From an uncultured Paenibacillaceae bacterium (GTDB lineage: Bacteria; Bacillota; Bacilli; Paenibacillales; K13): a stretch of 64,000 bases of DNA. The stretch lies in NCBI GenBank assembly GCA_913056365.1, contig CAJXLT010000003.1:1-64000 (forward strand), in the 5' to 3' direction. The notes below the pieces were generated by a model, which was not told the origin of the DNA, did no database searches, and saw nothing but the letters and a program-made list of their open reading frames with translations. Positions 43,711-55,491 of this stretch are shown piece by piece; position 1 is the stretch's first letter, and each line of letters begins with the position of its first letter. The position numbers and the translations under genes are program-made.

Positions 43711-45153
43711 ATGTGGACGTTTGATTATGAAGCGCTCATCGAAGCATGTATGGGGGCATTAAGAGAATTCCTATTCTTGTATAGCTACACGGCGATCTAC
43801 TATGTGATCGGGGTCACGCTGCTGCTGTATCTCATCTTCGGCTTCTCGATGCGTCATATGGTAGCCATCAGGCGGGGTATTCGCTATAACCGGAATGTGA
43901 AGCTATCCGGCTACACGCCAGCAGTATCTATTCTAGTCCCGGCGTTCAATGAGGAATTGACGATTATTGAGAATGTCAGATCGTTGCTCGCGCTTGATTA
44001 TACGGAGTACGAGGTCATCGTCGTCAATGACGGCTCGCAGGATCGCACCTTGCAGCGCATGCTTGACGAGTTCCAGCTAGAGCCCATACAGCCTGTGCTT
44101 GGCGGCAGCATTCATACAGAGAAGATCAGAGGGGTCTATCATAATCCCGACTATCCGAATCTCTACTTCATCGACAAGGAGAACGGAGGCAAGGCAGATT
44201 CATTGAATGCAGGGATTAATCTGTCCCACTACAAGCTGATCTCCACGATTGATGCAGACTCGCTCTTGGAGAAGGATGCATTATCCAGAATTGCGCGGGT
44301 GTATATGGAGAATCCCGAGGAAACGGTTGCCGTCGGAGGAAACGTTCGCATCGTGAACAACTGCACAGTGGAAGATGGAGTTGTCAAGGATGTCCGATTC
44401 CCCCGCAAGCTGCTGCCCGCGCTGCAGCATGTTGAATACTTGAAGGCATTCTTGGGCGGCAGGATCGGATGGAGCGCGGTCAATGGGCTCATCATTATAT
44501 CGGGCGCGTTCGGCGTGTTCCAGAAGGACAAGGTCGTAGCGGTCGGCGGCTACCGGGGCGGCTATCCCGGAGAAGATATGAATATCGTCATCAAGCTGCA
44601 TCGCTACTGCTTGGAGAACGACATCCCGTATCGGGTAGCATTCTGTCCCGATGCCGTCTGCTGGACGCAAGCGCCGGATTCATACCGGGTATTGAGCACC
44701 CAACGCAAGCGCTGGGGACGAGGAAATCTGAAGAACATGATCGAGGAAGGCGTCCATATGGTGATGCGTCCGAAGTACAAAATATTCGGCCTGCTCACAC
44801 TCCCGTACAACATTATGTTCGAGACGCTGAATCCGTATTTCCGACTAGGCGGCATGATCGCTATATTAGGGTATTGGCTTCTCAATATGACGGAGTGGAG
44901 CACGGTGCTTGTGTTCGCACTGGTGAACTTGTTCTCATGCTTCACACTGAGCTTGGGCGCCTTGTTCATTGAAGAATCAGCGTTCGGACGGTATCCGAAG
45001 CTAAGCGATCTGAGCAAGACAATCTTGTATTCGTTTCTTATGTTTTTTGGCTATCGGCAGATCGGTGTATGGTGGCGGCTAAGCGGTCATATCCAATTTT
45101 TACGTAACAACAACTCTTGGGGGACGATGACTAGAACGCATTTTGACAAATAA
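43711..45153 (+). CDS. Processive-type family 2 glycosyltransferase (putative exopolysaccharide synthase)
   Basis: 480 aa. One membrane segment near the N-terminus (about 25-48), a GT-A domain (about 68-335) and three or four C-terminal membrane segments. Motifs: VSILVPAFNEELTIIENVRS, VIVVNDGSQD, DxD at Asp181-Asp183 (TIDADS), catalytic base region Glu288-Asp289 (YPGEDMN), and QRKRW at 331-335, the hallmark of processive synthases such as cellulose, hyaluronan and PNAG enzymes. It should polymerise a UDP-sugar and export the chain. Neighbouring genes supply GlcN6P (GlmS) and a UDP-uronic acid (WbpA-type), hinting at a GlcNAc/GlcNAcA polymer, but only one synthase is present. GGGAGG is 8 nt before the ATG. 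Confidence 0.88.
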   Translation: MWTFDYEALIEACMGALREFLFLYSYTAIYYVIGVTLLLYLIFGFSMRHMVAIRRGIRYNRNVKLSGYTPAVSILVPAFNEELTIIENVRSLLALDYTEYEVIVVNDGSQDRTLQRMLDEFQLEPIQPVLGGSIHTEKIRGVYHNPDYPNLYFIDKENGGKADSLNAGINLSHYKLISTIDADSLLEKDALSRIARVYMENPEETVAVGGNVRIVNNCTVEDGVVKDVRFPRKLLPALQHVEYLKAFLGGRIGWSAVNGLIIISGAFGVFQKDKVVAVGGYRGGYPGEDMNIVIKLHRYCLENDIPYRVAFCPDAVCWTQAPDSYRVLSTQRKRWGRGNLKNMIEEGVHMVMRPKYKIFGLLTLPYNIMFETLNPYFRLGGMIAILGYWLLNMTEWSTVLVFALVNLFSCFTLSLGALFIEESAFGRYPKLSDLSKTILYSFLMFFGYRQIGVWWRLSGHIQFLRNNNSWGTMTRTHFDK

Positions 45154-45225
45154 TGACGGTGGACGCTAACTAGCCATCCGTTTCACATAGATAAGCATGA
45201 TCTTAATCGAAGGAGAGTGAGGAAT

Positions 45226-46035
45226 ATGGCGGTAATCGTGCAAGAACCTATACAGGAAGGTGTATGGCAATTAACCCAACGTATTCAGGACTCTTATAGT
45301 GGAAGTGCAGCTTGCGGGGTTATTCTGGCTCCATGTGCATCGTTCAATCAGAAGGCGATGGAGCAGCTGCAGCGTGATATGAGAAGCGACCGTTCGGACG
45401 CTGCTTCAGACATCTTCTACCTAGTTCCGAACGGTCTGCTCGGCGTAGTGCTATCTGAACAGAAGCTAGCTGATGCTCATTATGCATCGCTCTTGATCAA
45501 GGATTTCACAGAGAGGCAAGGCTTGCTGGAAGGGCAGCTGGTCGTCGCGAGCTTCCCTGAGAGCGGAGAGCTGACAGAGCAGGCGCTGTCACAGCTCGTT
45601 CATACCTCGCTTCAGACGAGAGGAGAGAGCAGAGAGATCCAGTTGTTCACGAATCAGGAGGCGCCGCACAGGGTCTCCTCGGTGCTGATCGCTGATCCGG
45701 ACGAAGTGAGCAGGGAATTCGTCAAGCTGCGGCTTGAGATGGACGGCTATGAAGTGGAAGAAGCACATGACGGAAGAGAAGCGCTCGAGAAGCTTGCGCG
45801 GACAATGCCGGACTTGGTCATTACGGAATTGAACTTGACGATCGTCGATGGGTATCAATTGATCGATAGGGTGAATAGAGATTACTCGACTGAAGTGATC
45901 GTGCTTACCGATAATCAGCTGCCTAAGAATATGATTCGCGCTTTCGAACTAGGTGCTGCCGATTATGTAACGAAGCCATTCTCTTACTCTGAATTGGCGT
46001 GGCGGATCAGGAAGCTGGCATTACGGCGGATGTAG
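45226..46035 (+). CDS. Degenerate GGDEF-like plus pseudo-receiver protein
   Basis: 269 aa, soluble. C-terminal 115 residues are a receiver fold (VLIADPDEVSREFVKLRLEM; GAADYVTKPFS) in which the phosphoacceptor Asp is replaced by Glu201 (DLVITELNLTIVDG) and one acidic-pocket Asp by Pro158, while Thr228 and Lys250 remain. The N-terminal 140 residues have the strand/helix rhythm of a GGDEF domain (DIFYLVPNGLLGVVLSEQ; LVVASFPESGELTEQALSQL) but no GGDEF signature; this is my inference. Neither half looks enzymatically competent. It may be a nucleotide- or protein-binding regulator that controls the synthase encoded just upstream. ATG 45226 is preferred over GTG 45217, which abuts AGGAGA. Confidence 0.75.
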   Translation: MAVIVQEPIQEGVWQLTQRIQDSYSGSAACGVILAPCASFNQKAMEQLQRDMRSDRSDAASDIFYLVPNGLLGVVLSEQKLADAHYASLLIKDFTERQGLLEGQLVVASFPESGELTEQALSQLVHTSLQTRGESREIQLFTNQEAPHRVSSVLIADPDEVSREFVKLRLEMDGYEVEEAHDGREALEKLARTMPDLVITELNLTIVDGYQLIDRVNRDYSTEVIVLTDNQLPKNMIRAFELGAADYVTKPFSYSELAWRIRKLALRRM

Positions 46036-46073
46036 GTGAACCATACATTTTACACAAAGGCAGGTTGATGCAG

Positions 46074-47429
46074 ATGAGCGCATATGCGAATTTGAACTAT
46101 AAACTCGAGAATAAAACAGCTGATATTGGAGTGATCGGTCTAGGTTACGTGGGATTGCCGTTATGTATGGAGATGGTGAAGGGCGGGTTTCACGTATCTG
46201 GTATCGATCTGGACGCCCGTAAGATAGATGCACTGCGCGGAGGCAAGTCCTACATCCAGGACGTTCCGAACACGGAGGTGGCAGAAGCGGTGCAATCGGG
46301 TCGGTTCGTGCCGACGGATAATTATCATGCGGTACAGAAGCTAGATGTCATCTGTATTTGTGTGCCGACACCGCTTAACGATAATCAGGACCCCGACACT
46401 TCCTATATTAAGAGCGCGGTTCGCGAGATTAAGAAGAACTTGAAGCGCAAGGCGCTAATCATTCTCGAGAGCACGACATACCCAGGAACGACAGAGGAGT
46501 TGATTGAGCGTGAGCTGGAAATGCAGGGGATGTCGGCGGGCAGGGACTTCTTCCTCTGCTTCTCACCGGAGCGCGTCGATCCGGGCAATACAAGCTACAA
46601 CACCTACAATACGCCCAAAGTGATCGGCGGCACGACGGAAGCGTGCAGACAGCTCGGGGTCACCTTATACAGTCAAGTAGTGAAACAGGTCGTCCCTGTA
46701 TCCTCCCCGAAGGTTGCGGAGATGTCGAAGTTGCTGGAGAACACGTTCCGCAGCATTAATATAGCGTTCGTGAATGAAATGGCTATGATGTGTGACAAGA
46801 TGGACGTCGATGTGTGGGAGGTCATCCAGGCGGCATCGACCAAGCCGTTCGGATTTATGCCGTTCTACCCGGGACCGGGCATCGGCGGTCACTGCATACC
46901 GCTTGATCCGATGTACTTGTCTTGGAAGGCGAAGGAATTCCGCTTCTACAGCAAATTTATCGAGCTGGCGCAGTCGATTAATGACAACATGCCGGAATAT
47001 GTGCGCAACAAGGCTTCACAGGTGCTGAACATGTATGCGAAGTCCATTCGCAATTCGAAGATTCTCATTCTCGGAATGGCGTACAAGCCGGATATTGATG
47101 ATCTCCGCGAATCGCCGGGCTTGGAAGTGTATGAGCTGTTGCAGGAGAGCGGGGCGTACGTGGATTATTACGATCCTTATGCCCGCTCCTTCCAGGATAA
47201 GCAAGATGGAACAGTGCTCTCTGTGGACTATGACCATGCGGCATTCGCCCAATACGACTGTATGGTGCTGATTACGAATCATCAATGCTTCGATAACCGT
47301 GAGTTAGCCGGACTAGGTGTGCCGATCATAGACACGCGCAACGCCTTTGAAGCTACAGCGTTCGACAATATCTATAAGCTAGGTGCCGGAATTGGGGGCA
47401 GAGAAGTGAAGCTGGCGGTAGGCGTTTGA
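46074..47429 (+). CDS. UDP-GlcNAc/UDP-hexose 6-dehydrogenase (WbpA-type)
   Basis: 451 aa. Rossmann motif IGVIGLGYVGLPLCMEM, catalytic Cys274 in GIGGHCIPLDPMYLSWKA, and SPERVDPGNTSYN, which resembles the SPEREDPGN of WbpA-type UDP-N-acetylglucosamine dehydrogenases rather than UDP-glucose dehydrogenases. It would oxidise C6 of the UDP-sugar twice with NAD+ to the uronic acid. Start ATG 46074 is 9 nt after AGG of AAAGGCAGG; ATG 46068 is an alternative. It sits between the regulator-like gene and glmS, so it probably supplies the synthase with UDP-GlcNAcA. UDP-ManNAc or UDP-GalNAc as substrate cannot be excluded. Confidence 0.87.
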   Translation: MSAYANLNYKLENKTADIGVIGLGYVGLPLCMEMVKGGFHVSGIDLDARKIDALRGGKSYIQDVPNTEVAEAVQSGRFVPTDNYHAVQKLDVICICVPTPLNDNQDPDTSYIKSAVREIKKNLKRKALIILESTTYPGTTEELIERELEMQGMSAGRDFFLCFSPERVDPGNTSYNTYNTPKVIGGTTEACRQLGVTLYSQVVKQVVPVSSPKVAEMSKLLENTFRSINIAFVNEMAMMCDKMDVDVWEVIQAASTKPFGFMPFYPGPGIGGHCIPLDPMYLSWKAKEFRFYSKFIELAQSINDNMPEYVRNKASQVLNMYAKSIRNSKILILGMAYKPDIDDLRESPGLEVYELLQESGAYVDYYDPYARSFQDKQDGTVLSVDYDHAAFAQYDCMVLITNHQCFDNRELAGLGVPIIDTRNAFEATAFDNIYKLGAGIGGREVKLAVGV

Positions 47430-47463: not shown

Positions 47464-49293
47464 ATGTGCGGAATTGTGGGGTATATTGGGAATCGAGAGG
47501 CGCAGCCGATATTGCTGAACGGATTAAGCAAGCTGGAGTATAGAGGGTATGATTCTGCAGGGATTGCGGTGCTGGAGCGCAATCAGATGAAGCTGCGGAA
47601 GACGGAGGGACGGCTGGCGAACTTGTCAGCTCGACTGCGCGATCATCAACTGAAGGGGACGGCAGGCATCGGTCATACACGCTGGGCGACGCATGGCAGA
47701 CCGTCAGATGCGAATTCGCATCCGCATACGGATATGTCTGGCACATTTACAGTTGTGCATAACGGCATTGTCGAGAACTATGTGGAGCTGAAGCAGGAGC
47801 TAGAGCAGAGAGGTGTCGTGTTCACTTCCGAGACAGATACCGAGGTGGTTGCGCACCTGCTCGCTGAACATTATGAAGGGGACCTCGTCTCTGCCGTGCG
47901 TGCAGTGATCCAGAGGTTGCAGGGCGCCTACTCTCTCGGTGTGATGACGGAGCACGAACCGGACAAGCTTGTCGCTGTCAGACAGTCTAGTCCGCTCGTC
48001 GTTGGCATCGGGTACGGGGAGAACTTCATAGCTTCAGATATCGCAGCACTTGTTGCGCACACCCGCCAGGTGTATATTCTCGAAGATGGCGAGCTTGCTG
48101 TTATTACGCCCGAGCGCATAGCGATCATGAACGCTGAGAGCGGGCAACCGACGAATCGCAAGCCGACGCAGGTTGATTGGAATGCTGACCAGGTGGAGAA
48201 GGGGCTGTTCGACCACTTCATGCTGAAGGAAATTCATGAGCAGCCGTTAACACTTCGCAATACGATGCTCGGACGTACGAATGAGTACGATGAAGTGTGC
48301 TTCCCGGAGCTGGCGCATGCGGCAGACGTGTTCAAGAACGTGGAGAAAGTATTCATCGTCGCTTGCGGCACCGCTTATCATGCTGGGCTGATCGGCAGTA
48401 CAATGATTGAGCAATTGACGCGTATACCGGTTCAGTGCGATATCGCATCGGAATTCAGGTATCGCGATCCGGTCGTCACGGCGAACACCCTGCTTATTGT
48501 CGTCAGCCAATCCGGTGAAACAGCGGACACGCTCGCCGCATTGCAGGAAGGGCGCAGACGCGGGGCTAAGGTACTGGCCATTACGAATGTGCCAACCAGC
48601 TCGATTGCGCGCGATGCGGACTATGTGATCTCGACGATGGCTGGTCCGGAGATTGCTGTCGCCTCGACCAAAGCCTATACAGCTCAGCTACTTGCGTTCT
48701 GCTTATTTAGTGTATACTTAGGACAAGAGAAGCGGACGATTCGTTCCGAGCAGCGTGTGGAGCTGGTACGAGGGTTGAAAGCATTGCCTGTGCAAGTAGA
48801 GAAAGTGCTGGAGAACGCCAACGAGGTGAAGCAGTATGCCGAATCGATCAAGGATGCGGGCAGCCTGTTCTTCATCGGTCGAGGACTTGACTACGCCGTT
48901 GCACTCGAGGGCTCGCTCAAGTTGAAGGAGATCTCCTATATACACTCGGAAGCTTATGCGGCCGGGGAATTGAAGCACGGCACGCTGGCCCTGATTGAAC
49001 AAGGGACACCCGTCATTGCACTCGTCACACATATGGACCTCTATGACAAGACCGTCAGCAATATTAAAGAAGTGAAGGCTCGCGGGGCCCATGTGATGGG
49101 GATAACGGTCGAAGGCAATGTGCAGCTGCTGAATGCGGCGGACGAAATTTGTTTCATTCCGCCTACGCTACAGCTGCTCGCTCCGATCTTAGCGGTCGTA
49201 CCGCTGCAATTAATCTCTTACTATACGTCCTTGGCACTGGGGAAGGACATAGATAAGCCTCGAAATTTGGCCAAGAGCGTTACGGTTGAATAA
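47464..49293 (+). CDS. glmS: Glutamine-fructose-6-phosphate aminotransferase (operon copy)
   Basis: 609 aa, full length. N-terminal glutaminase with Cys nucleophile after the initiator Met (MCGIVGYIGNREAQ) and two SIS isomerase domains (VACGTAYHAGLIGS, VSQSGETADTLAAL), ending in NLAKSVTVE. It makes glucosamine 6-phosphate, the entry to UDP-GlcNAc. Only 34 bp separate it from the upstream gene, leaving no room for the glmS ribozyme that normally controls the housekeeping gene in Bacilli. It is therefore likely a dedicated second copy driving precursor supply for the polysaccharide. GAGAGGAG precedes the ATG. Confidence 0.95.
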   Translation: MCGIVGYIGNREAQPILLNGLSKLEYRGYDSAGIAVLERNQMKLRKTEGRLANLSARLRDHQLKGTAGIGHTRWATHGRPSDANSHPHTDMSGTFTVVHNGIVENYVELKQELEQRGVVFTSETDTEVVAHLLAEHYEGDLVSAVRAVIQRLQGAYSLGVMTEHEPDKLVAVRQSSPLVVGIGYGENFIASDIAALVAHTRQVYILEDGELAVITPERIAIMNAESGQPTNRKPTQVDWNADQVEKGLFDHFMLKEIHEQPLTLRNTMLGRTNEYDEVCFPELAHAADVFKNVEKVFIVACGTAYHAGLIGSTMIEQLTRIPVQCDIASEFRYRDPVVTANTLLIVVSQSGETADTLAALQEGRRRGAKVLAITNVPTSSIARDADYVISTMAGPEIAVASTKAYTAQLLAFCLFSVYLGQEKRTIRSEQRVELVRGLKALPVQVEKVLENANEVKQYAESIKDAGSLFFIGRGLDYAVALEGSLKLKEISYIHSEAYAAGELKHGTLALIEQGTPVIALVTHMDLYDKTVSNIKEVKARGAHVMGITVEGNVQLLNAADEICFIPPTLQLLAPILAVVPLQLISYYTSLALGKDIDKPRNLAKSVTVE

Positions 49294-49308: not shown

Positions 49309-50634
49309 TTGGAACAAGATGAAGGCATTCGCGATTCGGTTGACAGCATGCATACGCTCGCAGATGATGACAGAGTCATGAAGTGGAAAGTTGCAGGATT
49401 GGCCGTCATGCTGCTCAGCCTGTCGAGTATTGCGTTCATCATAGTGAACTCGTTGACTGTCCCGATTGAGGTGAAGGTGAACGGAGAGAAGCTGCAATTC
49501 GCAGATGCGCAGCCGTACATCGACAAGCTGACGGACCGGACGATGGTTCCAGCTAGAGAGATAGCTGAGCAACTAGGGGCCGTAATGGAGTGGGACCGTA
49601 CTTCGAAGCGGGGAGTCATACGCAGTCAGCAGTTCACAGTGTCATTCGTAGTCGGAGATCAGGAGGCAACCGTTAACGGAGAAGCCGTGCAGCTTGATAC
49701 ACCGGCTGTTATTCAGGACGGGCGCACGATGGTTCCGCTTGGATTCGTAAGCGAGAGCTTCGGGGCCGATGTCCGCTGGGCGCAAGATCGTCACCTGGTG
49801 CTCGTAACCTCGGCTGACAAAGCGCACAGAGCTACTTGGATATGGGACAGTTCGTTGATTGCGCACGATCGCGACCGCTTGCTTCAGTTCGCGGAAGAAC
49901 AGAAGCTGACAGACATTTATATTAGCTATGATACCGATGCAGCCGATCCGGAAGCTTACCGAACGTTCATCCGAAGCGCGCATGAGCTGGGTATGAAGGT
50001 GGAGGCGCTGGCAGGAGCATCGGATTGGATATACGAGAAGAATCACCGTTATATTGAGCGGTTTATTGATGCGGTTACAGCGTATAATCAATCAGCTGAG
50101 ACCGAGGAGCGGTTCGCAGGCTACCACTTCGACATCGAACCGTATACGCTGGACGAATGGGATACAGAGCAGACCTGGGTGCTCGAGCGCTGGATGGAGA
50201 CGATCCGATTCATTGAAGCTGAAGTAAGCAGCGCTGATGCCGGCATGAAGGTGAACTTAGATATTCCGTTCTGGATTGGGAGACGTACCGTTCCGGGAAC
50301 GAGCTATCCGTTCAGCTCATGGCTGCTGGAGAAGGTGGACGGTGTCGTCATTATGGCTTATCGGAATGCCGCCCAAGGCAACAACGGCATTATCACCTTA
50401 GCGAAGCCGATTACTCAGGAAGCCGCGACGCTCGGGAAGTCGGTCATCGTAGCCGTGGATACACTGCCTAGCAAGGAGGGCGATCATACAACCTTCCATT
50501 CGCTCCAGCCTGCGGTCATGGAGGCGGAATTGCAAGTAGTAATGGAACAATTATCTCCGTATTCGAGTTACACAGGGATCGCTGTCCATGATTATGTGAG
50601 GTGGAGCGAGGCTCTGAATAAGCAACCTGATTAA
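49309..50634 (+). CDS. Membrane-anchored copper-amine-oxidase-N stalk plus TIM-barrel (glycosidase-like)
   Basis: 441 aa. One membrane helix at about 27-47, then a copper amine oxidase N-like beta domain (about 52-155: VPIEVKVNGEKLQFADAQPY, DGRTMVPLGFVSESFGADVR), and a barrel with FAGYHFDIEPYTLDEW and VDGVVIMAYRN, recalling GH18-like DxE chemistry. Probably extracellular, perhaps a second hydrolase or a binder of the exported polymer. Starts: TTG 49309 has AAGGGTGG too close, while an out-of-frame ATG at 49319 is well spaced and encodes a 19-aa peptide whose TGA overlaps the in-frame ATG at 49378. Start is therefore uncertain. Confidence 0.78.
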   Translation: MEQDEGIRDSVDSMHTLADDDRVMKWKVAGLAVMLLSLSSIAFIIVNSLTVPIEVKVNGEKLQFADAQPYIDKLTDRTMVPAREIAEQLGAVMEWDRTSKRGVIRSQQFTVSFVVGDQEATVNGEAVQLDTPAVIQDGRTMVPLGFVSESFGADVRWAQDRHLVLVTSADKAHRATWIWDSSLIAHDRDRLLQFAEEQKLTDIYISYDTDAADPEAYRTFIRSAHELGMKVEALAGASDWIYEKNHRYIERFIDAVTAYNQSAETEERFAGYHFDIEPYTLDEWDTEQTWVLERWMETIRFIEAEVSSADAGMKVNLDIPFWIGRRTVPGTSYPFSSWLLEKVDGVVIMAYRNAAQGNNGIITLAKPITQEAATLGKSVIVAVDTLPSKEGDHTTFHSLQPAVMEAELQVVMEQLSPYSSYTGIAVHDYVRWSEALNKQPD

Positions 50635-50674: not shown

Positions 50675-51547
50675 ATGAAAGGGTTGGGTATGATCATACC
50701 TTTGCTCATTGGTGCTGTTCTCGGCAGCTCTGTGGTGGCGATTAGCGGAAGCAGTGAGAATCCGGTTAACCTTCGCGAATCGTCCCAATCGGACAAGAGC
50801 TTGGAGGTCGCGCATAATGAACGGCTTCATCTGTCCACGGATAAGCAATGGATTGCTGAAGACGGTCACCAGTCTGACCTGATTCGGCTGCAGTGGACCG
50901 AAGACCGGGCGAAGCCCGCCATATCCTGGCTGGATGAGAACGGACATAACAAGACGGCGATCATCGCTCATAGCAAGGCCAATAATCCAGATCAGCATGA
51001 TCATAATCATATGTCATTCGAGACTACTATGTCCCCTGACGGACAATATTCGGATCAGCTGTTTACACGATTGGAAATTCCGTACGATCAGGACGTTGCT
51101 GAGATCCGGACGCACTCTTCCAACTTCAATGTAGTAGACGGTACCTTGCGTATAGCTGGATCGGAAGGTGTGCACCGCGATTTGGCCTGGGCCAAAACGG
51201 AGGAAGGCAATCGCACGACTCCGCGCTGGATTATGCGTGTGGATGCTTCTGGGGAAACAGAAGAAGACGGCGGCTCAGATTGGCAGCTGATCCGCTATTC
51301 GAATGATGGGGAAGCGCTGGACGCAACGCTTGCAGTCAGGAGAAGCAACGGTTATGTAGGCGTGGGGAATACAGATCCACAAGCTAGATTAGACATTAGC
51401 GATGACAGCATTCGTATTAGAGAATCCAGAACGCCGGCTTCTTCCTCGGCTCCAGGTCAAGCGGGGGAGATCGCATGGGATAACGGGCACGTCTATATCT
51501 GTGTGGCACCGAACACTTGGAAGCGTGCGCCGTTGTCCGCATGGTGA
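50675..51547 (+). CDS. Secreted protein of unknown function, phage-tail-like C-terminus
   Basis: 290 aa. N-terminal signal or anchor (KGLGMIIPLLIGAVLGSSVV), a hydrophilic middle with a His/Asp cluster (NNPDQHDHNHMS), and a C-terminal part with NGYVGVGNTDPQARLDISDD and GEIAWDNGHVYICVAPNTWK, patterns common at the ends of phage tail fibres and bacterial surface proteins. GGAGGGAGGAGAG precedes the ATG. Last gene of the polysaccharide operon, 40 bp after its neighbour, with a terminator downstream. It may be a polymer-associated surface component; no catalytic motif is seen. Confidence 0.75.
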   Translation: MKGLGMIIPLLIGAVLGSSVVAISGSSENPVNLRESSQSDKSLEVAHNERLHLSTDKQWIAEDGHQSDLIRLQWTEDRAKPAISWLDENGHNKTAIIAHSKANNPDQHDHNHMSFETTMSPDGQYSDQLFTRLEIPYDQDVAEIRTHSSNFNVVDGTLRIAGSEGVHRDLAWAKTEEGNRTTPRWIMRVDASGETEEDGGSDWQLIRYSNDGEALDATLAVRRSNGYVGVGNTDPQARLDISDDSIRIRESRTPASSSAPGQAGEIAWDNGHVYICVAPNTWKRAPLSAW

Positions 51548-51764: not shown

Positions 51765-52460
51765 ATGATGTGGAAAGTACTGATCGCAGACGATGATCCG
51801 AATGTGAGGGAGATTGTTCGGCTCTACTTCGAACAGCAACAAATCGAACTAATAGAAGCAGCAGACGGTGAATCGGCTCTTGCGCTCATGGAAGAGTCGC
51901 TTCCTGATATCGTGATCCTGGATGTGATGATGCCTGGACTTGACGGCTTCGAAACATGCCGTGAGATGTTGAAGCGGTATGAGATTCCCGTCATTATGCT
52001 GACAGCGAAGAATGAAGAGATTGATCGGGTGCTTGGACTTGAGCTAGGCGCAGATGACTATATGATTAAGCCATTCAGTCCGAGAGAGCTTGTGGCGCGC
52101 ATTAAGGCGATCTTCCGCAGAATGCAGAAGGGACAGCCGCCAGCAGAGACCGATGTGCCTTCACAATATGAATTTGGCGGTCTGACGATTCATACGGCTC
52201 GCCGGGAAGTGATCGTGGATGGTGAGAAGGTCGAATTGCGTCCGAAGGAATTTGAGTTACTCGCGTTCTTGGCCAAATCTCCGGGTTCAGTATTTACGAG
52301 AGAGCAGCTGCTGAAGCATGTTTGGGGATATACGTTCGCAGGTGAGATGAGAACGGTGGACGTACACATTAAGAAGCTTCGTGAGAAGCTAAGCCCATGC
52401 AGCCATGCGTGTATTCACACGGTATGGGGAGTCGGCTATAAATTTGAGGTTGAAGCATGA
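51765..52460 (+). CDS. OmpR/PhoB-family response regulator
   Basis: 231 aa. Receiver 1-118 with Asp53 in PDIVILDVMMPGLDG, conserved Thr in IPVIMLTAK and Lys in YMIKPFSPRE; C-terminal winged helix (LRPKEFELLAFLAKSPGSVF; VDVHIKKLREKL; TVWGVGYKFEV). AAAGGTG lies upstream of tandem ATG codons. It overlaps the kinase gene by 4 bp (ATGA), so they are translationally coupled. It directly follows the exopolysaccharide operon terminator and is a candidate regulator of that operon, though nothing in the sequence proves it. Confidence 0.93.
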   Translation: MMWKVLIADDDPNVREIVRLYFEQQQIELIEAADGESALALMEESLPDIVILDVMMPGLDGFETCREMLKRYEIPVIMLTAKNEEIDRVLGLELGADDYMIKPFSPRELVARIKAIFRRMQKGQPPAETDVPSQYEFGGLTIHTARREVIVDGEKVELRPKEFELLAFLAKSPGSVFTREQLLKHVWGYTFAGEMRTVDVHIKKLREKLSPCSHACIHTVWGVGYKFEVEA

Positions 52461-53899
52461 ACTTGAACCCGAATAAGAGCATATTCCGTAAAATCCTAAT
52501 TAGTTCCATTGTTACGGTGCTGTTAGGACTGTGCGCAGTCGGACTCGTTATTTCGTTCTTTGCCAAATCGTATATTGTCGACTCCAGAAGCGATGAGATG
52601 ATCCGCCAGGCCAAACGGGTCAATCTCGCTGTCCAAGACTACCCGATTCCGAATGAGGGGTTTAAGGATCTGCTGCTTTTTTTTGATCAAGCCTATGATA
52701 AGCGTATTTGGATCTTCGATGCGGAAGGGAATATTATTGTAACTTCCTCCAAGGATGAAGTGAACGCAGGCAAGTCTGTCAGTGACAAGGTTGTCAATCA
52801 AGTCATTCACGGCGATCCCGCGATATGGAATCAGACGGAAGGCATAGAGGAAGCGATGCTGTCCGTTGCAGTTCCGTGGGGGAAGGATAATCAGGTATAC
52901 GGCGGTATTGTGCTGCATTCGCCATTGAAGGGGATGGATGAAACTACAGCTCAGCTCAGAGAGACGATTGTGTGGGTGACGCTGTTTGGTGTATTTTTCT
53001 CCTTCGCCGTATCATCCTACTTGTCCTGGTCGATTACCCGTCCGATCAAGCAGATTGATAAGGCTGCTGCCAAGATCGCAATCGGCGATTATAGTGATAG
53101 AATTCATATCAAGTCGAAGGACGAAGTCGGGGAGCTTGCGACAACGATCAATCATATGATGGACCAGCTTGAGCGTGTTGATCAGGATAAGAATAAGCTG
53201 AATCAGATGCGGCATGATTTCTTGGCCAATGTGTCCCACGAGCTGCGGACTCCGCTTACTGCGATGCTTGGTTTTCTTGAGGCGCTGCAGGACGGGCTGA
53301 TCGAAGAGGGAGCAAGGGACAAGTACTACGAGATTATGTATAACGAGACGCTTCATATGAATCGACTGGTCGATGACATTACAGATTTGATGAAGCTGGA
53401 GAACAAGGAAATCCATCTTGTCTTCATGACGGTCGATGTGCAAGCGATCTTGTCCAAGCTGGCCTTCAAGTTCCGTCAGGAAGCAGATGGTCGGGGGACG
53501 GTTATCTCCTGTGTGATCGATGAAGATTCACCGCCGCAAGCGTATGCAGACCCGGATCGATTAGAGCAAATCTTGAACAATCTCATCAAGAATGCGGTCA
53601 AATTCACAGAGAACGGAACGATCGAATTGAAGGCGATGGCCGTTCCGACAGAAGAGTGTGTCTTGATCACTGTCACAGATACGGGAATTGGCATATCGCC
53701 GGAAGACCAAGGGCTGATCTGGGAGCGGTTCTTCAAGGCAGAACGAGGCAGACCGTTCAAGCATAAGGGATCGTCCGGCTTGGGACTGGCCATCGTCAGA
53801 GAGCTTGTCGAGCTGCATAACGGCAGTGTCCGTGTGCAGAGCGAGATTGGGCAAGGAAGCACATTCGAAGTCAGAATACCGTTGGTGAAATCCACTTAG
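52457..53899 (+). CDS. Membrane sensor histidine kinase (HAMP, HisKA, HATPase_c)
   Basis: 480 aa. Membrane segments at about 13-36 and 170-192 flank an extracellular sensor domain of about 130 residues; HAMP (ITRPIKQIDKAAAKIAIGDY), dimerisation domain with His261 in NVSHELRTPLTAMLGFLEAL, ATPase with NLIKNAVKF, DTGIGISPEDQGLIWERFFK and SSGLGLAIVRELVELHNG. Partner of the preceding regulator. The sensor domain resembles WalK/ResE-type kinases of Bacilli; the signal is unknown. Confidence 0.93.
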   Translation: MNLNPNKSIFRKILISSIVTVLLGLCAVGLVISFFAKSYIVDSRSDEMIRQAKRVNLAVQDYPIPNEGFKDLLLFFDQAYDKRIWIFDAEGNIIVTSSKDEVNAGKSVSDKVVNQVIHGDPAIWNQTEGIEEAMLSVAVPWGKDNQVYGGIVLHSPLKGMDETTAQLRETIVWVTLFGVFFSFAVSSYLSWSITRPIKQIDKAAAKIAIGDYSDRIHIKSKDEVGELATTINHMMDQLERVDQDKNKLNQMRHDFLANVSHELRTPLTAMLGFLEALQDGLIEEGARDKYYEIMYNETLHMNRLVDDITDLMKLENKEIHLVFMTVDVQAILSKLAFKFRQEADGRGTVISCVIDEDSPPQAYADPDRLEQILNNLIKNAVKFTENGTIELKAMAVPTEECVLITVTDTGIGISPEDQGLIWERFFKAERGRPFKHKGSSGLGLAIVRELVELHNGSVRVQSEIGQGSTFEVRIPLVKST

Positions 53900-54098: not shown

Positions 54099-54725
54099 CT
54101 ATTGAAAGTTCTCGACATCTTCCTTCAAAGTGTGTACATCGATTTCATCATATTTGGCAACAACCAAATTTTTTGAAAGTGATTTTAATTTATTGTTCTT
54201 AACAATAAATACGCCGTCTTCAAAACCCATTGAAGCATAGGTGCCATCATCATTTTCCACAAGAAACAACACTACCTGTTGACCTTTTTTAACTTTAGTC
54301 TGCATCTTATCATCACCTGCGATGCCAATCTGATTAAAGAGAATTGTTTCTTTATTAGTTTCGCCTGACCATACTTCCTCTATGTCGATTTTCGTCTGTG
54401 CAATAGAATATCTCGGTGCCTTTCTTTGATTTTCTTGATTCTTTTGATCGAGAGCAGAATCCAGAGGGAATTTCTTCGTTTTGGTCACCCCTTCATCCAG
54501 CACAGTTCCAGCAACCACTAAATCAGATGCCCTCATAATTTCCTCTAAAGACTGGTATACATGTTTTGCTCCAAAATGAATATCATCAGAACCGATATAC
54601 TTTGAAGATATATCAGGTGATTGATTGTAGCGACTTTCACTTGTACTAGTCAGATACACAATAAATACTCCGATCATTATGAGACCTGCAAAGGACAACA
54701 CAATATTTTTTTTGTTCAGTACCAT
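54099..54725 (-). CDS. Membrane-anchored protein of unknown function
   Basis: 208 aa. N-terminal membrane helix (NIVLSFAGLIMIGVFIVYL) then an extracellular domain with a beta-rich core (DLVVAGTVLDEG; IAQTKIDIEEVWSG; QQVVLFLVENDDGTYASMGF). No family recognised with certainty; the pattern 'sensing of value, KKGQQVVLFL, ... GVFIV' is like small exported lipoprotein-type domains of Bacilli. It is AT-rich relative to neighbours. GGAGTGAG lies about 6 nt before the ATG. It lies 26 bp downstream of the matrixin-like protease gene on the same strand and probably forms an operon with it, perhaps as inhibitor, substrate or sensor. Confidence 0.72.
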   Translation of the reverse strand: MVLNKKNIVLSFAGLIMIGVFIVYLTSTSESRYNQSPDISSKYIGSDDIHFGAKHVYQSLEEIMRASDLVVAGTVLDEGVTKTKKFPLDSALDQKNQENQRKAPRYSIAQTKIDIEEVWSGETNKETILFNQIGIAGDDKMQTKVKKGQQVVLFLVENDDGTYASMGFEDGVFIVKNNKLKSLSKNLVVAKYDEIDVHTLKEDVENFQ

Positions 54726-54751: not shown

Positions 54752-55351
54752 TTAGTACATGTTCTCCAGATCATCTCTATCATGGTCTTGCGGAATTTTA
54801 TATGGACAGTTAAATAGCATAATAGAAGAAATTAATCCACTATCTTCAGGATGTCCGAGATTCATGGCATGTCCTAATTCATGTGCGACTAATCTTTCAG
54901 CATGATCATTCGAGGGATTGAAATTTTCCGCTTTCAAATTTAATTGAGCATAATAAATAGTACTATACTGAAATGTCCCATCTATATTGTTCCCACCATA
55001 ATTATCATATAAGATAGCCAGTCCATCCAATCCAGCCCAATCTCCAGGCCAATTATCATAATCTGCATAATCTACATTTGAAGAAGAAAAACTTGACATC
55101 GATGCACTCACATAATTATTTGAATGATTATTCCAGTTACTAACTGCTAGCTGTGCTTTGTTTTCAAAAGGCCCATTATCCAGTAAATTATCGCTAACTT
55201 TCATCTTGATCACGTTATGCCCGTATGATGAAGCATAATAGAGATCAAACCACCTTAAATTTGGCTCATATTCATGAGCGGTAGTCACATCCGGAGTTAT
55301 TACCAAGACATACAATAAACTAAACACAAAAATAAACGTTTTCTTCATCAT
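54752..55351 (-). CDS. Secreted matrixin-like zinc metalloprotease
   Basis: 199 aa from ATG 55351 (AAAGGAG 5 nt upstream). Signal peptide MMKKTFIFVFSLLYVLVITP with cleavage near TTAHE. Zinc-binding motif HELGHAMNLGH (HExxHxxGxxH) followed by SSIML as a Met-turn: the metzincin/matrixin pattern. The catalytic Glu and all three His are present. No propeptide cysteine switch is evident. AT-rich with codon use unlike its neighbours, suggesting recent acquisition. Probably a secreted protease; the adjacent membrane-anchored protein may be its partner. An AT-rich 140-bp region upstream presumably holds the promoter. Confidence 0.87.
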   Translation of the reverse strand: MMKKTFIFVFSLLYVLVITPDVTTAHEYEPNLRWFDLYYASSYGHNVIKMKVSDNLLDNGPFENKAQLAVSNWNNHSNNYVSASMSSFSSSNVDYADYDNWPGDWAGLDGLAILYDNYGGNNIDGTFQYSTIYYAQLNLKAENFNPSNDHAERLVAHELGHAMNLGHPEDSGLISSIMLFNCPYKIPQDHDRDDLENMY

Positions 55352-55491
55352 TGTTTCTCCTTTCAAATAAATTTATAAATTTCCTCAATTCACCTCCTAA
55401 TCAAAATATATATCTTTTATCAAAAAAAATAAATGGGTTTTTAGTCCCGTTTTCTCATTACTCTGTTTATTAGTGATATTGGTTATACGCA

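Follow-up and report, generated by a model that had tools for sequence, protein, structure and literature searches.

A pseudo-receiver joined to a probable GGDEF relic is a constant neighbour of a HEAT-GT2 exopolysaccharide synthase

The cytosolic protein BcsE, which takes part in the secretion of cellulose by E. coli, unites a degenerate receiver and a degenerate GGDEF domain in one polysaccharide-synthase protein, and the GGDEF part of BcsE needs no c-di-GMP to dock a protein partner (PMC7439463). PelD, of the Pel polysaccharide, is also a protein with a degenerate GGDEF domain encoded in a synthase operon, and it occurs in Gram-positives too. Receiver folds without the phosphorylated Asp are known from aspartate-less or pseudo-receivers such as ChxR, RitR, FrzS and the plant PRRs, and Glu is the commonest substitute (PMC4395418, PMC12632262). 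According to a Pfam census of 2015, about 4% of receivers have no Asp at this position, Glu taking its place in about 26% of these (PMC4395418), so that a Glu is expected there in roughly 1% of receivers. Whether bacterial pseudo-receivers are switched, and by what means, was counted as a major unknown in a review of 2025 (PMC12632262).

We report on a protein with such a receiver, encoded in a window of 64,000 nucleotides (the window being the whole stretch of DNA analysed); the coordinates of the features are collected in Table 1. The open reading frame starts with an ATG, about 10 nt downstream of a Shine-Dalgarno sequence AAGGAG at 45210, and both modules of the protein probably derive from signalling domains that lost their chemistry. 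The receiver has no usable pocket, the GGDEF-like half has no known ligand site, no output domain is present and the gene is inseparable from a synthase gene; from this combination we consider it somewhat more probable than not that the protein is a cytosolic, phosphorylation-incompetent subunit, structural or regulatory, of a HEAT-GT2 exopolysaccharide synthase.

Table 1. Features of the two-domain gene and of the synthase locus in the window
Feature	Coordinates	Strand	Remarks
Two-domain protein, probable GGDEF-relic domain and pseudo-receiver	45226..46035	+	269 aa; coordinates include the stop
N-terminal domain, residues 1-146	45226..45663	+	predicted a-b-a-b-b-a-b-a-b fold; GGDEF profile match
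Receiver domain, residues 150-268	45673..46029	+	Pfam PF00072 (Response_reg) over residues 153-261, E=4e-23; Foldseek TMt up to 0.96
Hairpin of strands, residues 61-77	45406..45456	+	aligned with the RYGGDEF hairpin of GGDEF domains; lacks the signature
Helix face His85 to Lys92	45478..45501	+	conserved; candidate docking or ligand site
Asp157-Pro158	45694..45699	+	what is left of the acidic pair; no second acid
Glu201 codon	45826..45828	+	phospho-acceptor position
Thr228 codon	45907..45909	+	Thr or Ser in every relative
Lys250 codon	45973..45975	+	Lys in 131/131
HEAT-repeat protein, N-terminal hydrophobic segment	42473..43642	+	constant neighbour; Pfam HEAT_2; co-occurrence
Processive GT2 polysaccharide synthase	43711..45153	+	closest NCBIfam model PgaC/IcaA, under the cut-off; DAD, GED and QRKRW motifs visible in the sequence
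762-aa glycoside-hydrolase-like protein, N-terminal hydrophobic segment	40181..42469	+	weak Glyco_hydro_72, E=0.006, below cut-off
UDP-sugar 6-dehydrogenase	45999..47429	+	precursor supply; TIGR03026; real start probably near 46068
GlmS, glucosamine-6-phosphate synthase	47464..49293	+	precursor supply; TIGR01135

With the N-terminal half alone as the query, 81 of the 399 genomes of the order proved to contain relatives, and a profile search added further ones from other families of the class (f33, f38 and f22). When 398 genomes from across the phylum were sampled, the matches came exclusively from the window's own order. Gene content suggests Paenibacillus-like bacteria. The first family set held 81 sequences and the extended set 131 distinct relatives, to which the counts for the receiver pocket and the conserved helix refer. 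The two-domain architecture is common to all members. Pfam recognised Response_reg in each of the 51 members scanned and, in the same 51, no DNA-binding or other output domain; as the protein of the window has no DNA-binding domain either, the reading as a transcription factor was rejected. An acidobacterial match (L011, residues 23-257) was not counted among the orthologues, being a receiver that ends a longer, different protein, and a match to SduA in PADLOC was taken as spurious, since it covers the receiver residues alone. The matches of a tblastn search of plasmids were restricted to receiver-type regions.

The receiver was aligned to solved receivers of the YycF type, which assigns Asp157 and Pro158 to the acidic pair, makes Glu201 the counterpart of the phospho-acceptor and sets Thr228 and Lys250 at the conserved T/K positions; for Pro158, Glu201, Thr228 and Lys250 this is as the original prediction had it. 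Every one of the 81 sequences in the first family set has Glu201; in the extended set this position is Glu in 107 members and Asp in 24, so that its conservation holds for most of the family and fails for one part of it. All 24 Asp201 members belong to family f33, and they have Asn or Ser at 157 and a non-acid at 158, whereas 104 of the 107 Glu201 members keep Asp or Glu at 157. The second acid, at position 158, is retained in just ten members, every one of them with Glu201. A complete phosphorylation pocket, with two acids and a phospho-acceptor Asp, occurs in none of the 131 members. Orthologues with a normal Asp, which had been named as evidence against the original prediction, thus exist in form only, all of them being deprived of the acids of the metal pair; no phosphorylation-competent orthologue was seen. 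The Pro158 noticed in the acidic pocket is indeed there in this protein, but it is not a conserved feature: the position varies among relatives (P/N/H/Q/G/T/D/S/E/Y), and we rejected the proline as anything other than a lineage-specific form of the loss of the second pocket acid. As a control, six other receivers in the flanking loci all have Asp.

In a tree built without the pocket columns, the Asp201 members fall within a single supported group of a family that otherwise has Glu, and at least two changes between Glu201 and Asp201 are needed, on a tree rooted without an outgroup. The pairing of positions 157 and 201 is complete in the counts for the Asp members and amounts to just two independent pairs on the tree, too few for a statistical claim. 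The Glu201 members and the Asp201 members with their lost acidic pair represent two different routes by which competence for phosphotransfer appears to have been lost family-wide. Lacking key catalytic residues, the receiver of the window is a pseudo-receiver, and it probably cannot be phosphorylated. In several genomes of f33 the two-domain gene is found twice, at separate loci (L170/L171, L172/L173, L168/L169), both copies having Asp201 in one case and Glu201 in the others.

Control by a histidine kinase could persist if Glu201, or some other residue, were modified in an unusual way. The Thr/Ser and Lys positions of the pocket, retained in all 131 members, and a response regulator/histidine kinase pair at 51765-53899 would speak for it; yet no member has a complete pocket and the nearby kinase is directly preceded by an OmpR-type regulator of its own, and we regard such control as highly improbable.

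A second use of the Glu is conceivable, namely that it mimics the phosphorylated Asp and locks the receiver in its "on" conformation, which would then be the purpose of the substitution; this would refine, and is compatible with, the reading as a synthase subunit. That 107 of 131 members combine Glu with the conserved Thr/Ser and Lys is consistent with it, as is the closest fold match, a BeF3-activated YycF receiver, though this says little. The literature on such mimicry is divided (PMC12632262, PMC4395418): it is known for several receivers and has been disproved for others, many are not activated by Glu alone, and in ChxR the activity remained constitutive after the Glu was replaced (PMC4395418). 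The 24 relatives without Glu201 weigh against it as well. Glu201 may favour an active-like conformation of the receiver (PMC12632262), and we find a lock of this kind plausible, though it is less likely than not to be the reason why Glu took the place of Asp.

The N-terminal half has no convincing family match in Pfam, GGDEF included, either in the protein itself or in the members scanned. AlphaFold, run with the family alignment, predicts a helix (8-24), a strand (30-37), a helix (42-55), two strands (61-66 and 71-77), a helix (81-97), a strand (105-110), a helix (118-130) and a strand (138-140), with a mean pLDDT of 89 for the whole protein and of 80 for the N-terminal domain alone. The strand and helix rhythm of GGDEF domains, noticed from the sequence, is thus found in the predicted topology. 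The comparison of folds by Foldseek is less telling: the matches of the N-terminal domain are weak (best E about 0.009, none below E=0.001), although they include the GGDEF/cyclase structures 4rnf, 6khu, 4urg, 7e6g and 4wp3, which cover most of the domain.

The profile of the family was also compared by hhalign with that of 29 GGDEF domains, which gave 82% (score 37.1), and 90% (score 40.6) once gap columns were removed. The controls reached at most 20.0 for 300 column-shuffled GGDEF profiles, 15.2 for the reversed profile and 21.0 for six unrelated neighbour families. The E-values of this method refer to a single comparison; more reliance should be placed on the shuffle test. A profile of only five GGDEF sequences detected nothing. 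The alignment is collinear and sets the RYGGDEF hairpin against residues 64-72, "FAILLP" against 72-77 and "SIGIAxYP" against 104-111. A score far above the shuffles and a fitting predicted topology lead us to regard the N-terminal half as probably a GGDEF relative without nucleotide chemistry, in agreement with the relic proposed originally. The GG[DE]EF signature is found in none of 130 relatives and the FKxxND metal/substrate segment is deleted, so that the protein lacks what marks an active diguanylate cyclase.

On the helix 81-97, His85 (131/131), Leu89 (125/131) and Lys92 (127/131) are spaced at i, i+4 and i+7, and Gly31, Leu81, Phe110 and Ile138 are nearly fixed too in this domain. Such conservation suggests that the His85/Leu89/Lys92 face is a kept interface or a ligand site. 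The second possibility would make of the protein a nucleotide receptor of the kind of PelD, YdaK or BcsE: c-di-GMP, or a different nucleotide, would bind to the GGDEF relic outside the canonical sites, for instance around His85 and Lys92, and so switch polymer synthesis. The relationship to GGDEF domains, the strongly fixed His85 and Lys92 and the 15 GGDEF domains encoded in the same genome, by which c-di-GMP is probably available, are in keeping with it, and there are precedents in BcsE and PelD (PMC7439463, PMC7112168). However, the RxxD I-site is not conserved: its aligned columns hold P/S/G and A/S/T instead of R and D, and RxxD occurs in 9 of 130 relatives, scattered. With the signature and the metal/substrate segment missing as well, the analogy with nucleotide receptors of the PelD or YdaK type drawn in the original prediction was not borne out at the level of sequence. 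As BcsE and PelD, both degenerate GGDEF subunits of synthases, do bind c-di-GMP, binding of a ligand at another site is possible, but we hold a receptor function to be doubtful.

The placing of the gene in a synthase operon was confirmed: the HEAT gene, the GT2 synthase gene and the two-domain gene adjoin one another in each of the 100 loci checked, two apparent exceptions being over-long mechanical start calls. The glycoside-hydrolase-like gene lies near the two-domain gene in all 100 loci, the UDP-sugar dehydrogenase gene is present in 68 and glmS in 50. Among 201 genomes, 79 have the HEAT gene and 78 the two-domain gene, in the same genomes; in the single genome with HEAT only, the contig ends 0.9 kb after HEAT. 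The UDP-sugar dehydrogenase and GlmS encoded in the window suggest a polymer with uronic acid and hexosamine. Control of the operon by a c-di-GMP riboswitch was rejected, as Rfam has no match within the window. We found no description of a synthase class with a HEAT-repeat partner in the open-access literature searched.

Several other genes of the region deserve a mention in their own right. The 762-aa protein has no clear sequence match in Pfam, NCBIfam or the PDB. The gene at 49309-50634 encodes a Copper-amine-oxidase-N-like domain followed by a longer uncharacterised C-terminal region, and a related gene follows that of UGD or GlmS in many loci. A secreted protein of 290 aa with a tail-fibre-like C-terminus and no NCBIfam match is encoded at 50675-51547, and some relatives (L055, L056, L166) have kept its gene close to the operon. 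On the minus strand, 54752-55366 encodes a secreted zinc-protease-like protein with a HELGHAMNLGH motif and adjoins a gene of unknown function at 54099-54725.

The sequence states, the loss of the pocket throughout the family, the GGDEF relationship at the level of profiles and the strict co-occurrence are what our analysis shows, and from them we infer how the synthase subunit could work. Its GGDEF module would have lost the residues for making c-di-GMP, or for binding it at the usual I-site, and its receiver the usable phosphorylation pocket. The protein would be docked permanently on the membrane-anchored HEAT protein, on the synthase or on both, possibly through the His85/Leu89/Lys92 helix face and a face of the receiver, and would hold the synthase active or assembled; gene neighbourhood does not prove a complex, and the docking sites and the "on" state are put forward conditionally. 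Control would be exerted through expression or another partner and not through a histidine kinase. BcsE, although it retains its I-site, is a proven precedent for such a pair of modules and for docking by the GGDEF part.

The protein is thus probably a fixed building block of the synthase rather than a switch. We also offer, tentatively and with less confidence, a broader reading, which extends to several families of Bacilli. There, the ligand and phosphoryl chemistry of a GGDEF domain and of a receiver would both have been stripped away, and the two domains would have become a subunit with a purely structural role, which a HEAT-GT2 synthase class not yet described cannot do without. The pocket would be free to drift between two states, Glu201 combined with an acid at 157 and Asp201 combined with Asn or Ser at 157, because packing or charge matters there, and not phosphorylation. 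The family provides a clean case for the switching of pseudo-receivers, with more than 100 relatives in one fixed genetic context, a natural contrast of Glu and Asp at position 201 and a measurable output, the polymer; it also marks out a Gram-positive synthase class with a HEAT-repeat partner.

Finally we must place the protein among the known systems. YdaK, from the ydaJKLMN exopolysaccharide operon of Bacillus, resembles it as a GGDEF-type protein that is treated as a c-di-GMP receptor. YdaK has membrane segments and is not known to carry a receiver, in which it differs from the protein of the window. The characterised pseudo-receivers are mainly transcription factors, together with FrzS of social motility and plant clock proteins, and among those cited we found none that is a constant neighbour of a synthase and fused to a GGDEF relic (PMC4395418, PMC12632262). 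PelD differs by its GAF-GGDEF architecture with membrane segments and by an intact RxxD which, with a third Arg, binds c-di-GMP (PMC7112168); none of the 51 members scanned matches PelD in Pfam, and in a search of the window's own genome for PelD_GGDEF no control gave a match, so that this search carries no information. A comparison with BcsE gave no sequence match, but it has no power, since a genuine GGDEF profile likewise fails to match BcsE. BcsE differs by its order, REC-GGDEF with an extra N-terminal domain, and by its intact I-site, RTGD at 415-418, which binds c-di-GMP; the absence of the substrate P-loop and of alpha1 from its GGDEF domain (PMC7439463) is, for its part, a likeness to our protein.
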